From IMG/VR virus record IMGVR_UViG_3300036860_000167, positions 1-49,434 of that record: DNA of 49,434 bases. One strand, written 5' to 3'. A model generated the notes under the pieces. The model did no database searches, had not been told where the DNA came from, and worked only from the letters and a program-made list of their open reading frames with translations. The first letter of the stretch is position 1. Every line of letters starts with the position of its first letter. Shown here in pieces: positions 44 to 48,958 of this stretch. This DNA is from a virus. The position numbers and the translations under genes were made by a program.

Positions 44-463
44 ATGGTCAAGCGTGGCAAGGTTGAGTTGGCGGTTGGCCGGGATCTCCGCACGCTGACT
101 CCCGAGGCGCGGCGGTCTGGGCTGGCCGCGGCCGCGGTGGCGTTGGCGCAGCTGCTGGATGGTGAGTTCGTCGGGGTGTGCCGGTCCTGCCAGGAGGACG
201 TGACGATGGCCGTGGAGGCTTCCGCGCGGGATGCCGCCGCTGTCGCCCGGGAGTTGCGCGCGACGTTGACGACGTTGCGGGAGGTGGGTGATGACAGCGC
301 TGCTGGAGCCGCGCTCGCAGCTCGACTGTCCTCCCCGGTGGACATCCCCACGATCACCCGGGCGGCAGACGCTCGGCGGGCGGATCGCGGAGGTCGCGGA
401 TCTGTTGGGGACGCCGCTGATGCCGTGGCAGCGCCACGTCGCCGACGTCGCACTGGAACTTGA
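44..463 (+). CDS. Terminase small subunit
   Basis: A 139-residue basic protein directly upstream of the large terminase, the usual place of the DNA-recognition subunit that selects phage DNA for packaging. Residues 15-95 are Ala/Arg/Leu-rich and predicted helical (LTPEARRSGLAAAAVALAQLLDGEF is typical of actinophage small terminases; quoted here only in outline). The in-frame TAG at 32-34 fixes ATG 44 as the first start, although its ribosome binding site is weak. The last 58 codons overlap the large terminase in another frame and end in a run of arginines, which could contact DNA or may simply be a consequence of the overlap. The assignment rests on position and composition. Confidence 0.65.
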   Translation: MVKRGKVELAVGRDLRTLTPEARRSGLAAAAVALAQLLDGEFVGVCRSCQEDVTMAVEASARDAAAVARELRATLTTLREVGDDSAAGAALAARLSSPVDIPTITRAADARRADRGGRGSVGDAADAVAAPRRRRRTGT

Positions 464-9514: not shown

Positions 9515-10879
9515 ATGCGTCGCCTTATTTTTGTGCTGCTGCTGGTCGCCGGGCTCGGGTTGGCGTTCGCCATCGCGGTCGCCCCCGCCGGGACCGGCTC
9601 GCTGGCTGCCCTGACCAAGCCGACCAAACGCACGACTACGACGGTGGCGGCGACCACGACCACGGCCGCCGCCACGACGACGACGCTGGCGGCAACGACC
9701 ACCACCGCAGCACCGACCACCACGATCGCGCCTACCACCACGGTGGCCGACACGACCACGACGACGGAGTTGCCGACCACCACGACCGAAGTCCCGACGA
9801 CGACTGAGCCGCCCACGACCACGACGGAGCCGCCGACCACGACCGGGGCGACCACGACCACGGTCGCGCCGACGACCACGACGACCGGCCCGCCACCGCC
9901 CCCGCCGTTGCGCTTCCCCCGACCCGCCAGCTATGCCACCGCGCCCATCTACTACGTCACTACCGCCTCGAACGTCGTCAATGTTCCAGCCGGCACTGAC
10001 GCCAACGTGAAGTGCGCCGACCCGGTCACCCATGTTCCAGCGATCATGCACAAGCGGCCGGTTATCAACGGCGGCCGGGACGTGTACGTGGTCGGCTGCG
10101 ACGTCGACGTCAACCAGACCTGGCCGAACCCCGACGACCAGAATGCTGTCGGGTTCGGTGGGCAGACCCGCCTGGTGTGGTTCGAGGGCGTCTTTGCGCA
10201 CGGCGACTTCATCAACGACGGGCTCAAGGGTTGTGCGGGAGCAGCACGTTGGGTCGCGCAGAACGACCGGATCGGCCCGCTGCACGGCTCGCAGTCCGGC
10301 TACCACTCCGATGTGTTCCAGCCTTACTGTGGGTTCACTGACCCAGCGCCAAGCGATCCGTCCATCGGTGGATTCGATATCGACAACGTCACCGGTATGG
10401 GCGAGTTCCAGTGCCTGATGGTCAAGTCGGACAGCTCGACCTACATGTGGAACGAGACCAACATCGGTCGGCTCGACTGCCATGACACCCAGGCCCCCGG
10501 CAGTGACACGACCGCGCGGCTGCTGAACCTCGTCACCAACGGCACCATCCGCGGGCCGATCCACTACAGCCACTTCGGCTCCGACGAGTTCTTCATCGAG
10601 CCAAGGCCCAACACCCTCACCGATCAGAACGCCGGCAACGTCGACCTGAAGAACTCGATCGCCCCGGCCGCATGCTTTGTGATCGCCGGCACTGTGGCGA
10701 GCCCGACGCAGGTCGCCACACCCATTTCACCTGCCGGGAGTTGCCTCCCATCCGACACGACGCTCGTGTCTGACGGTCATGTCAGGGAGATGCAGCAGCA
10801 GGAAGCCATCCCGAACACGGGCTGGTTCGAGTACGTCCCAGCCTCCGGGAACGTCGGGCTGGGCTACGTCCTGCCATAG
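9515..10879 (+). CDS. Secreted Thr-rich stalk protein with beta-helix-like domain
   Basis: 454 residues. AAAGGGGG precedes ATG 9515. Residues 1-30 are a signal peptide or anchor (RRLIFVLLLVAGLGLAFAIAV). Residues 40-124 are a low-complexity linker of TTT runs broken by A, V, P and E, followed by a poly-Pro run: a mucin-like stalk. The C-terminal 320 residues (from about 133) have repeating short strands (NGGRDVYVVGCDVDVNQ, RLVWFEGVFAHGD, ARWVAQNDRIG) suggestive of a right-handed beta-helix, with several cysteines. It is probably displayed or released outside the host and is a plausible O-glycosylation target for the enzyme at 6416. Function not known. Confidence 0.75.
   Translation: MRRLIFVLLLVAGLGLAFAIAVAPAGTGSLAALTKPTKRTTTTVAATTTTAAATTTTLAATTTTAAPTTTIAPTTTVADTTTTTELPTTTTEVPTTTEPPTTTTEPPTTTGATTTTVAPTTTTTGPPPPPPLRFPRPASYATAPIYYVTTASNVVNVPAGTDANVKCADPVTHVPAIMHKRPVINGGRDVYVVGCDVDVNQTWPNPDDQNAVGFGGQTRLVWFEGVFAHGDFINDGLKGCAGAARWVAQNDRIGPLHGSQSGYHSDVFQPYCGFTDPAPSDPSIGGFDIDNVTGMGEFQCLMVKSDSSTYMWNETNIGRLDCHDTQAPGSDTTARLLNLVTNGTIRGPIHYSHFGSDEFFIEPRPNTLTDQNAGNVDLKNSIAPAACFVIAGTVASPTQVATPISPAGSCLPSDTTLVSDGHVREMQQQEAIPNTGWFEYVPASGNVGLGYVLP
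9632..9886 (+). repeat. Thr-codon microsatellite encoding the stalk
   Basis: About 255 bases made mostly of ACC and ACG codons in runs of three to five, interspersed with GCC/GCG, CCG and GAG. It codes for residues 40-124 of the secreted protein and is the most repetitive stretch of the window, prone to length change. Confidence 0.8.
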
Positions 10880-14717: not shown

Positions 14718-16370
14718 GTGCCGCTGCCCGGCTGGCGGCGGATCCCGCACCGCCAGATCGCCTGGCGGCCGCAGCCGGCCGTCGTCACCCCGCCGGTCAC
14801 GGTCGCCAACACGCTGGAAGGTGGCACCGACGGGGTCACCGTCACCACCGGCAACTCCGGCGGCGCCAGCGGCGACATCTTCCAGTCCGTCCAGACCGGC
14901 ACCGGCGCGACCAACGCGTTCTCGGCCACCCACACCCGCGGCACGATGGCGGTCATGTTCGCCACCGGCGGGACCGCAGCAACCCCAGCCGACGGGTGGA
15001 CAACCGCCATCGGCACCCAGACCGAGATCTGGTACCGCTGCTACATCTACTTCACCGCCAACCCGGCCGCCGCCCACCGCATTCTGCACGTCCACTCCGG
15101 CGCGTCGCAGCGATGCAGCGTCGAGCTGGAGACCACCGGGTTGCTGCAGATGCTCGACTCGTCCGGCAGCACGCTGCCCGCAGACCGCACCACCACTGCG
15201 ATCGCGTTGAACGCGTGGAACCGGGTCGAATTCCACGCCATCCTGTCGGCCACGGTCGGCCAATACGAGCTCCGCCTCTACAAGACCAACCCTGACGCGG
15301 CCATCGCCAGCTACGACGAGCAGGTCTCCTCGGCGGCCAACAAGAACCTCGGTGGGGCTGGGGACACCTACAGGTTCGGGGTTACCGGGAGCCCCGTCGC
15401 CAATGTGGTGGCGTGGTGGGCTGACGACCTATCGGTGTCCACGGCAGGGTGGATCGGCCCGAGCGCTGGCGGCCCGGCGACCATCACCGCCGACGCGACA
15501 GTGGCCGCCACCGCCACGATCGCCGCAGCCGGGCTCGCCATCACCGCAGGCGCAGGGACGATCCCCGCCACCGCCACGATCGCGGCCGCCGGGACCGTCA
15601 TCCAGCCGGCCACCGGCACCATCAGCGCAACGGCGACCATCGCCGCAGCAGCCACCGTCATCCAACCTGCGGTCGCGACGATCCCGGCGACCGGCACCAT
15701 CGCGGCCGCTGGCATCGTCATCCAACCCGCGACGGGCACCATCACAGCCACGGCGACCATCGCTGCGGATGGGACGGTCGTCCCGGCTGGCCCGGCAACG
15801 ATCCTCGCGGTCGGCTCAATTCCAGCTACCGCAACGATCAGCGCCGCCGGGACCGTCATCCAGCCGGCCACCGCCAATATCGCGGCGACCGCAACGATCG
15901 CCGCCGCCGGTACCCAGATCCAACCCGGCACCGCCACGGTCAGCGCCGCCGCAACGATCCAGGCGGCCGGGCTGCGAATCGCGGTTGCCACTGGGCAGAT
16001 CACCGCGACTGGAACGATCGCTGGGACCGGCCTGCGGATCGTCCTGGCCACCGCGACGATCAGCGCAACTGCGACCATCGTTGGCTCGCCTGTTGAGGTC
16101 CAACAGGCCATCGGCACTATCCCGGCGACCGGCACCATCGCCGCGACCGGGGTGACGTTCAAGTACGTCCCTGCGGTCGCGACGATCCCCGCCACCGCCA
16201 CCGTCGCGGCGGTCGGCAGTGTCGAGGTGCCCCCACCCGTCCCACCCCCCCGCTGGGTCGAAGGCGCGACCTCGGCCACCACCCTGGTCGACGCAGTGTC
16301 CAGCAGCAGCGGGCAGATCGAAGGGGCCATGGCCGGAGCGGGGCTCGTCGAAGGATCAAGCAGCCTCTGA
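14718..16370 (+). CDS. LamG-like protein with about twelve 20-residue repeats
   Basis: 550 residues from GTG 14718. Residues 30-245 look like a concanavalin/LamG-type sheet domain (TEIWYRCYIYFTANP, RILHVHSG, WNRVEFHAILSA, ELRLYKTN, WWADDLSV). Residues 252-504 are about twelve copies of a 20-residue unit with consensus GTIPATATIAAAGTVIQPAT, beta-solenoid-like in pattern. A short C-terminal part repeats EGA/VEG (WVEGATSA, QIEGAMAG, LVEGSSS). Carbohydrate binding plus a repetitive shaft would fit a virion fibre or a capsid-attached adhesin. Confidence 0.8.
   Translation: MPLPGWRRIPHRQIAWRPQPAVVTPPVTVANTLEGGTDGVTVTTGNSGGASGDIFQSVQTGTGATNAFSATHTRGTMAVMFATGGTAATPADGWTTAIGTQTEIWYRCYIYFTANPAAAHRILHVHSGASQRCSVELETTGLLQMLDSSGSTLPADRTTTAIALNAWNRVEFHAILSATVGQYELRLYKTNPDAAIASYDEQVSSAANKNLGGAGDTYRFGVTGSPVANVVAWWADDLSVSTAGWIGPSAGGPATITADATVAATATIAAAGLAITAGAGTIPATATIAAAGTVIQPATGTISATATIAAAATVIQPAVATIPATGTIAAAGIVIQPATGTITATATIAADGTVVPAGPATILAVGSIPATATISAAGTVIQPATANIAATATIAAAGTQIQPGTATVSAAATIQAAGLRIAVATGQITATGTIAGTGLRIVLATATISATATIVGSPVEVQQAIGTIPATGTIAATGVTFKYVPAVATIPATATVAAVGSVEVPPPVPPPRWVEGATSATTLVDAVSSSSGQIEGAMAGAGLVEGSSSL
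15471..16229 (+). repeat. Tandem 60-bp coding repeats
   Basis: About twelve degenerate units of around 60 bp encode the 20-residue repeat. The most conserved stretches are the ACSGCSACSATC-type codons for ATATI and GTCATCCA for VIQ; units in the middle (15590-15770 and 15840-15920) are closest to each other. Divergence rises toward the 3' end. Confidence 0.85.
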
Positions 16371-47659: not shown

Positions 47660-48645
47660 TGCCGCGGAACTACTTCAAGCTCGACCTGTACTTCTTTGAG
47701 CACCCCAAGGCCGTTGACCTCTCCCACGCGGCCACGGTGCTCTTCTTGGCGTCCATCGCCTACGCCAACCGCCGGGAGACGGACGGGTTCATCGCCCGTC
47801 CTGTCGTCCGCAAGCTCGTTGACATTGAGGACGCCTACGACCAGGATCCGCCGACCCATGATGAGCTCGCGGCTTGCCTTGTGAAGGCGAATCTGTGGGA
47901 GCCGGTTGAGGGTGGCTGGCAGATCCACGACTTCGCCGACCACAACGACACCAGCGATGAGCGGGCCGCCAAGCGCGCTGACGACGCGGCCCGTAAACGC
48001 AAGCAGCGTCATCGTGAGTCCACTTCCGGCCAGGTCACACCGGGACAGGATGTGACGCCTGCCGATGTCACACCGAGTCACAACGGACGTGTCACAGCGT
48101 CACACGCTATAGAAGTAGAAGTAGAAGTAGAAGTAACAGAAGCAGAGAAGAGAAATATCAACACCGTCGTCGAGCAAGCTCGACCGGTCGGCGTCCACCC
48201 CGCCGCTGTCCAGCAGGTCTTCGACGCCTGGCAGCACTCGACCGGCAAGCACAAGGCCCGCCTAGACGACAAGCGGCGCCGCAAGATCCAGCAGGCTCTC
48301 AAGACCTACCCGCTCGAGGACATCCTCGATGCCGTCCAGGGCTGGCGTAATTCACCCCACCACTGCGGCCAGAACGACCGCGGCACCGTCTACAACGACC
48401 TTGAGCTACTACTCCGCGACGCGCAGCACATCGAGGCGTTCCGTGACCTCGCGCGGGATGGTCCCGGAGTCCCCATCGGCAAACGCACCCAGCAGCTTCT
48501 CAACCACCAGCAGGGCATGCATGCCGTCGGCATGGCGAAGGGGGTGATCGGCAATGGCAATGGCCTGGCCCCAATGGGAGCACCTGGTCGCCCGGATCAA
48601 CGCGAGCTGGCCCGACCAGCAGATCGAACCGCTGACAGCAGGTGA
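47659..48645 (+). CDS. Replication initiator (O-like/DnaD-type) with internal origin
   Basis: 328 residues from ATG 47659 (GTG 47656 also possible). The N-terminal winged-helix-type domain (NYFKLDLYFFEHPKAVDLSH, ATVLFLASIAYANRRETDGF, VVRKLVDIEDAYD, ACLVKANLWEPVEGGWQIHD FADHN) is typical of phage replisome organisers. Basic linker AAKRADDAARKRKQRHRES, then a linker whose DNA holds GTCACA iterons and an AT-rich EVEVEVEVTEAEKRN stretch. The C-terminal domain (VFDAWQHSTGKHKARLDDKR RRKIQQALKTYP, LEDILDAVQGW, NDLELLLRDAQHIEAF) is the conserved initiator C-terminus. It would open the origin and recruit the helicase. Confidence 0.88.
   Translation: MPRNYFKLDLYFFEHPKAVDLSHAATVLFLASIAYANRRETDGFIARPVVRKLVDIEDAYDQDPPTHDELAACLVKANLWEPVEGGWQIHDFADHNDTSDERAAKRADDAARKRKQRHRESTSGQVTPGQDVTPADVTPSHNGRVTASHAIEVEVEVEVTEAEKRNINTVVEQARPVGVHPAAVQQVFDAWQHSTGKHKARLDDKRRRKIQQALKTYPLEDILDAVQGWRNSPHHCGQNDRGTVYNDLELLLRDAQHIEAFRDLARDGPGVPIGKRTQQLLNHQQGMHAVGMAKGVIGNGNGLAPMGAPGRPDQRELARPADRTADSR
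48034..48166. other. Candidate replication origin inside the initiator gene
   Basis: Six GTCACA sites at 48034, 48051 (inverted), 48067, 48077, 48091 and 48099 in 71 bases, followed by an AT-rich purine-strand stretch 48107-48166 containing four exact GAAGTA hexamers (48112-48135). Iterons next to an easily melted region within the initiator gene is the lambda O arrangement. Confidence 0.65.
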
Positions 48646-48958
48646 GTGGTACGACGACCTCGCCCATCTGGACCCCGAGCTGCTCGGCCAGGCCGTCCGG
48701 AACCTCCGCCGCGAACATGACTACCGCCCGGCCCTGGCCGCGCTCCTCCGCGAGGTCGGCCAGCTCCGCGCCAACCTGCCCCAGCCATCCAGCAGCCGAC
48801 CCCGCGTCGACCACGACACATTCCGGCAGATCCTCATGTTCGACCCCGCCGCGCAGAACACCCCCGCCGGCGTCAACCTCAGCGACCACACCTGCATCCC
48901 CAACCAGACCCGCGCCGAGGAATGGCTCAAGTTCCAGGTCGAGCAGGCCGTCCCGTGA
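48554..48958 (+). CDS. Probable helicase loader
   Basis: 134 residues, overlapping the initiator gene by 92 bases. WPQWEHLVARINASWPDQQI, EPLTAGEWYDDLAHLDPELL, GQAVRNLRREHDYRPALAAL LREV resembles loaders that pair with DnaB-type helicases (the G39P/G40P-inhibitor type N-terminus: short helices, W-x-x-L-x-D-x-D). The C-terminal half is Pro-rich with FRQILMFDP. Position after the initiator supports the role. No helicase is in the window, so the host DnaB is probably recruited. Confidence 0.65.
   Translation: MAMAWPQWEHLVARINASWPDQQIEPLTAGEWYDDLAHLDPELLGQAVRNLRREHDYRPALAALLREVGQLRANLPQPSSSRPRVDHDTFRQILMFDPAAQNTPAGVNLSDHTCIPNQTRAEEWLKFQVEQAVP

Follow-up and report, generated by a model that had tools for sequence, protein, structure and literature searches.

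Inside the replication initiator gene of a phage, six GTCACA repeats are followed by an AT-rich tract, which raises the question of whether this DNA serves as a replication origin or is only what the protein requires. The DNA analysed here (the window) is a 49,434-bp IMG/VR virus record (IMGVR_UViG_3300036860_000167). The original prediction compared the arrangement with the lambda origin in gene O and proposed that the protein text of the linker is driven by DNA function. From our analysis, the array is very probably the phage's own replication origin, placed within the linker of the initiator gene in the manner of lambda and SPP1, where binding, melting, helicase loading and firing would all take place.

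Genome and initiator protein

The window encodes a structural set (terminase, portal, head protease, major head protein and tape measure) together with an endolysin, an integrase match, a Mom-like protein, a RecT-type annealing protein and an MT-A70 methyltransferase. Judged from this gene content, it is a high-GC temperate tailed phage. One contig (L001) matches the right end of the window (100 % over 1,427 nt) and extends for 1,397 nt more to the left end; since it bridges both ends, it closes the genome to a length of about 50.8 kb. No DNA similar to that of the window was found in the phage collection searched. The only near relatives found were this near-identical contig and L017 (domain 68-70 % identical).

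The gene had been predicted to encode an initiator, and this was borne out by a match of residues 5-238 (of 328) to phrog_2447, 'replication initiation protein', with an E-value of 2.9 × 10−26. The match covers the N-terminal domain and the linker and places the protein in this family; the weaker matches behind it are further initiator families. When the protein was modelled using AlphaFold2, block-mean pLDDT values of 91-98 (residues 11-120), 44-72 (121-180) and 66-96 (181-290) were obtained. The array is encoded by residues 121-180, a low-confidence linker between two confident domains, so its predicted location in the linker agrees with the disorder in the model. Approximately residues 20-96 resemble winged-helix domains in VIA-align (Z 6-8) with no single family prominent. 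The best score (Rio2, Z 8.3) indicates only the common winged-helix arrangement, and 4pql_B, which we take to be a plasmid RepA N-terminal domain, is one among many rows at Z 6.3. The fold search with the model gave no PDB match at E ≤ 0.001, and in a profile search of solved structures the sole match at E-values up to 1 was a designed protein. Family searches with the downstream 134-aa ORF (Table 1) gave no informative match. In cellular genomes no close relatives were found, as none of 232 pattern matches was confirmed by tblastn.

Other repeats were also observed in the window. Longer degenerate tandem repeats with periods near 39 and 60 occur in the structural region (about 9631-9896 and 15567-15959). 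Five successive ORFs (45365, 45829, 46059, 46361 and 46585) have near-identical first 23 bases, ATGACC(G/T)CCACGCCCAACCCC(A/C)A, encoding M-T-(A/S)-T-P-N-P-(Q/K); this start-associated repeat resembles those of some mycobacteriophages.

Iteron cluster and AT-rich tract

Table 1 Features of the initiator locus in window coordinates
Feature	Position	Strand	Basis and remarks
Initiator gene, 328 aa	47659..48645	+	phrog_2447, AlphaFold2, VIA-align
Initiator domains: winged-helix N-terminal, disordered linker, helical C-terminal	about residues 10-124, 125-180, 181-267	+	AlphaFold2 model
Iteron cluster, GTCACA x6 in 71 bp	48034-48104	+ at 48034, 48067, 48077, 48091, 48099; − at 48051-48056	
Tandem purine/AT-rich tract, GAAGTA x4	48112-48135	+	(TAGAAG)4.3 at 48110-48135 by Tandem Repeats Finder; encodes (EV)4
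Predicted DNA unwinding element, 50-mer	48108..48158		Nearest-neighbour stability profile
Inverted repeat GTCGAGC-AA-GCTCGAC, 3' of the tract (tentative)	48169..48184		7-bp arms
Downstream ORF, 134 aa, overlapping the initiator gene	48554..48958	+	Gene order alone makes it a candidate helicase loader

The six predicted GTCACA sites are present within 71 bases, with the correction that one is inverted and that the spacing is irregular (18, 15, 10, 14 and 8). Three forward sites and the inverted one lie in frame 0, one in frame 1 and one in frame 2, and the region encodes the linker text ...SGQVTPGQDVTPADVTPSHNGRVTASHAIEVEVEVEVTEAEK.... The whole window contains 14 copies of GTCACA on both strands, six of them in the cluster. 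When the window was shuffled (300 first-order shuffles), the largest GTCACA cluster per 71 bp had three copies, and when all hexamers were scanned, five or more copies per 71 bp were reached in 0 of 100 shuffles. In the real window only GTCACA reaches six copies, while five are reached by five hexamers of one tandem array located at 9.8 kb. Outside the cluster GTCACA is scarcer than expected (8 sites vs about 27 in shuffles); codon bias against ACA, or avoidance of stray initiator binding, may lie behind this scarcity.

The four GAAGTA copies also occur as predicted, in 54 nt of 67 % AT within a gene whose GC content is 63 %. Nowhere in the 49.4 kb is a 50-mer less stable than at 48108, where the mean is −1.153 kcal/mol per step compared to −1.324 for the next site. 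The tract is also readable as TAG/AAG triplets, reminiscent of the DnaA-trio that accompanies DnaA boxes in host-type origins. The inverted repeat that follows may be due to chance, as arms of at least 7 bp were also found in 13 of 619 control segments.

GC skew had been suggested as a check on the origin. In the closed 50.8 kb, the cumulative minimum lies at the end of the sequence, about 2.7 kb from the array, whereas the maximum falls at 4 kb and not opposite. GC skew thus weakly favours an origin at the array, but is ambiguous and not decisive.

Recoding of the linker

The protein sequence was kept unchanged and the gene was recoded synonymously 20,000 times under each of two nulls, one drawing on the codon usage of the genome and the other on the gene's own codons. 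Under both nulls, six GTCACA, four GAAGTA and the AT-richness of the 54-nt stretch were each reached in 0 of 20,000 recodings. The tract is written in rare codons, all 17 having a joint log10 probability of −16.1. By a generic tract score, however, the window tract was not significant against codon permutation (P 0.09). The pentamer GTCAC was rejected as evidence on its own: because Val-Thr is easily written as GTCAC, six copies were reached by 2,087 recodings with genome codon usage and 2,088 with the gene's own codons. Judged at the sequence level, it is the DNA and not the protein that is under selection at the array, and for this the comparative evidence from the relatives is decisive.

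Repeats and tracts in related phages

When the N-terminal domain of BritBrat was used as a tblastn query, the domain was found in 517 phage records, from phages of Mycobacterium, Gordonia, Streptomyces, Arthrobacter, Microbacterium, Propionibacterium and Mycolicibacterium. Nineteen of these records were examined (four Gordonia phages and 15 more), and 12 of 31 records on a separate match list were taken for reading. An alignment search gave 79 viral contigs, to which 16 named loci (one being the lambda control) and the four Gordonia phages were added. After 10 near-duplicates had been dropped from a set of 100 genes, 90 remained, and removal of 12 that were too short left 78 (lambda included) for codon permutation.

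In the Gordonia phages Murp, Vasanti, DumpsterDude and BritBrat, whose aligned domain is 37-38 % identical to that of the window, GTCAC sites occur in the same linker, mostly at 12-bp spacing around a dyad GTCAC...GTGAC; their 12/7/12 pattern differs from the irregular spacing in the window. Warren and Verity also have GTCAC clusters in the linker. Other relatives carry GTAAC, CGAAC, CTAGC, CCAGCG or CGAAGC at the same site. In the iteron region of L017, the closest relative (domain 70 % identical), ten GTCC/GGAC and zero GTCAC were found, so the iteron motif is unstable even between close relatives; the tract ATAGAAGTAGAAGTAACAGAA is retained there in two copies, compared to four in the window. 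On the DNA-binding-domain tree the iteron classes are clustered, with 32 changes against a shuffled mean of 38.6 (as low in 0 of 200 shuffles), in a classification that holds 48 of 89 rows as class 'other'. GTCAC alone still needs 12 changes on this tree, so the motif has been switched often. The order of the elements is not universal either, since L019, L026 and L040 have a (CCATT)n tract on the 5' side of their GTCAC array. Toto and Faith1 have the same domain and no repeat array in the zone analysed below; their origin should lie elsewhere. The C-terminal halves differ among relatives that share one N-terminal domain. In a distant relative (L002), AACGTT-centred repeats and a GAGGAGAGGAGAGAAG tract were observed at about 1370-1500, ahead of a C-terminal domain that is in another reading frame.

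Codon permutation of the 78 genes gave P ≤ 0.01 for a tandem tract in 32, for the best iteron hexamer in 21 and for either element in 46; at P ≤ 0.05 either element was found in 63. Of 88 relatives (window and lambda excluded), 58 have tandem tracts of period 4-7 in a zone that spans nt 300-620 counted from the gene start, at a density of 2.11 per kb, compared to three tracts in 239 kb of flanking sequence (0.013 per kb). This zone was picked after the first set had been viewed and was then held fixed for 17 later loci, 11 of which had a tract in it (2.02 per kb vs 0.096 per kb outside). The later loci were taken from 38 of the 39 ids L112-L150 (L127, a contig of L039, was omitted), of which 19 overlapped the first set and two were duplicates. 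At least four GTCAC per 190 nt were present in 11 of 70 zones and in 5 of 1,010 control windows, and in 61 of 89 genes the least stable 40-mer had its centre at 380-640 nt, where a uniform distribution would place 27.

Most of the tracts in the relatives are C-rich on the coding strand, permutations of (CCCGA)n accounting for 26 of 58, and their 5-nt repeat units are out of step with codons. A G-quadruplex motif was found on the template strand in 52 of the 88 zones (1.97 per kb vs 0.038 outside) and once on the coding strand in the zone. Behind 42 C-rich tracts the AT content climbs to 0.58. Hairpins with arms of at least 8 within about 60 nt of the tract were observed in 20 of 61 tract-bearing genes, compared to 2 of 619 control segments. 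We nevertheless rejected a 3' hairpin as a general part of the arrangement, as such arms occur in only these 20 genes, the hairpins of L026 and L040 are iteron dyads, and the window has arms of 7. A G-quadruplex was also ruled out for the window's own tract, which is without G-runs, and the idea is therefore confined to the relatives.

It is conceivable, though we regard it as doubtful, that the actinophages share an origin module, translated or not, directly 3' of the winged-helix domain. Such a module would consist of family-specific iterons, a strand-specific tract (with a template-strand G-quadruplex in most lineages) and often a hairpin that is rich in AT and has a CTAACG-like loop; capture of one strand as a G-quadruplex would replace the AT-rich unwinding element, and the window lineage would have swapped in (GAAGTA)n. 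If this were true, a G-quadruplex-capable tract acting as unwinding element would be a new way of opening a phage origin in GC-rich DNA.

Arrays outside coding frames

In several relatives the DNA-binding domain alone forms a stand-alone gene. The L038 gene stops at nt 342 and is followed by ten GTCAC at 343-451, mostly 12 bp apart, and then by (CCAGA)6; all three forward frames are closed by stops between the gene end and the tract end. Reverse-strand ORFs overlap this array, as expected in GC-rich DNA, and were not taken for genes. L060 has ten GTCAC past the stop codon with one forward frame open, and Anatole has GTAAGC/AAGCAA repeats and (CCCGTA)4 past the stop codon, also with one frame open. 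As (CCCGTA)n is outside the annotated gene in Anatole but coding (PVPVPVP) in L035, it occurs in both states.

The same kind of array is thus present in homologous initiators and, in L038, beyond any forward frame, which upholds the description of the array as origin-like. Together with the failure of synonymous recoding to reproduce it, this also sustains the proposal that DNA function drives the protein text of the linker. The locus would be a clean case of an overlapping DNA function dictating protein text, with the non-coding homologues as a natural control.

In addition, a common stretch like AGAACTACTCACC was observed past the repeats, 3' of the stand-alone domain gene, in L024, L037, Barkley26 (L105), Dori (L106) and Tweety (L107); in several of these a stretch like TTACGT...CAACGCGC comes next.

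Origin function and alternative explanations

We infer the working of the proposed origin by analogy with lambda O and SPP1 gp38. The N-terminal winged helix would bind the GTCACA iterons, several bound protomers would put strain on the adjoining AT-rich purine tract and so open it, the C-terminal domain would recruit the helicase loader or the helicase, and replication forks would depart from the opened tract. The initiator might instead bind GTCACA for autorepression or handcuffing, with replication starting elsewhere. Plasmid iterons have a part in both control and initiation, many winged-helix proteins are regulators, and MntR, diphtheria toxin repressor and TtgV are among the VIA-align rows. 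However, the sites are found some 375-446 nt into the gene and not at its promoter, the weakest duplex of the window follows them, and the pairing of iterons with a tract recurs in the relatives, which makes a mere operator or copy-control site unlikely.

A low-complexity linker (VT-, EV- or PD-rich) that tolerates replication slippage could also produce repeats as a by-product of protein evolution, with no DNA function. The protein text does bring GTCAC alone within reach, the number of tract copies differs between the window and L017, and the generic tract score falls short of significance in the window. We consider this explanation very unlikely all the same, given that GTCACA occurs in three frames and on two strands, that the full hexamer and GAAGTA were never recovered by recoding, that 5-nt units do not fit codons, and that stand-alone genes carry arrays after the stop codon. 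Hardly any weight is given to an element that serves packaging (pac-like) or recombination (a hot spot for the exchange of initiator domains). The initiator is about 2.8 kb from the terminase region once L001 closes the genome, and one N-terminal domain is found with different C-terminal halves, but such a site would leave unexplained both the unwinding tracts and the fact that the iteron type follows the DNA-binding domain. An origin within the initiator gene is the reading that we prefer.

In the open-access literature, we found no lytic origin described for these phages, despite the 517 domain-bearing records, and neither an origin module of this kind in actinophages nor a G-quadruplex-capable tract at such an origin. 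The present analysis offers a predicted origin place and binding motif in BritBrat, Murp, Verity, Warren, Anatole and Tweety.

Comparison with known systems

Origins inside initiator genes are already known, with experimental precedents in lambda and SPP1. The lambda origin lies within gene O (PMC7466680, PMC3349717), and lambda O is described as binding double-stranded iterons and a single-stranded AT-rich region (PMC7466680). When the lambda region was used as a control, the proposed parallel held for the layout, that is, an origin midway along the initiator gene with iterons 5' of an AT-rich, purine-biased tract (PMC7466680, PMC3349717). It did not extend to the iteron itself, as lambda has four inverted-repeat iterons of 18-19 bp whereas the window has a 6-bp core at irregular spacing. 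The proteins differ as well. Lambda O has its own DNA-binding domain family and matches phrog_277 at 1.2 × 10−152, a family absent from the 13 listed for the window protein at E-values up to 1. Two families, phrog_345 and phrog_18020, are common to both proteins but align to different parts of each, and no PHROG match relates the two N-terminal domains.

SPP1 oriL, in gene 38, is described as direct repeats with an AT-rich unwinding element, at which initiation requires gp38, the loader gp39 and the helicase gp40 (PMC6316719). Its likeness to the window is one of layout, namely repeats and an unwinding element inside the initiator gene (PMC6316719). SPP1 differs in having a second origin, oriR, whereas the window has one GTCACA cluster only.

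For the extrachromosomal prophages of mycobacteriophages Miko, Rachaly and Jeeves, an origin upstream of or within repA was suggested by analogy with lambda (PMC7157519). These differ from the window in that the account of the region examined there reports no repeated motifs and in that their RepA is related to plasmid initiators (PMC7157519).

A further comparison is with the phrog_2447 or 'RepA-like replication initiator' genes of actinophages (BritBrat, Warren, Verity and others), whose N-terminal domain is homologous to that of the window. As second element they mostly carry a C-rich pentanucleotide tract, in contrast to the AT-rich purine tract of the window, and their C-terminal halves differ. 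The window itself has what characterizes an intragenic origin: short repeats clustered in the initiator gene and, adjacent to them, an easily melted AT-rich element.
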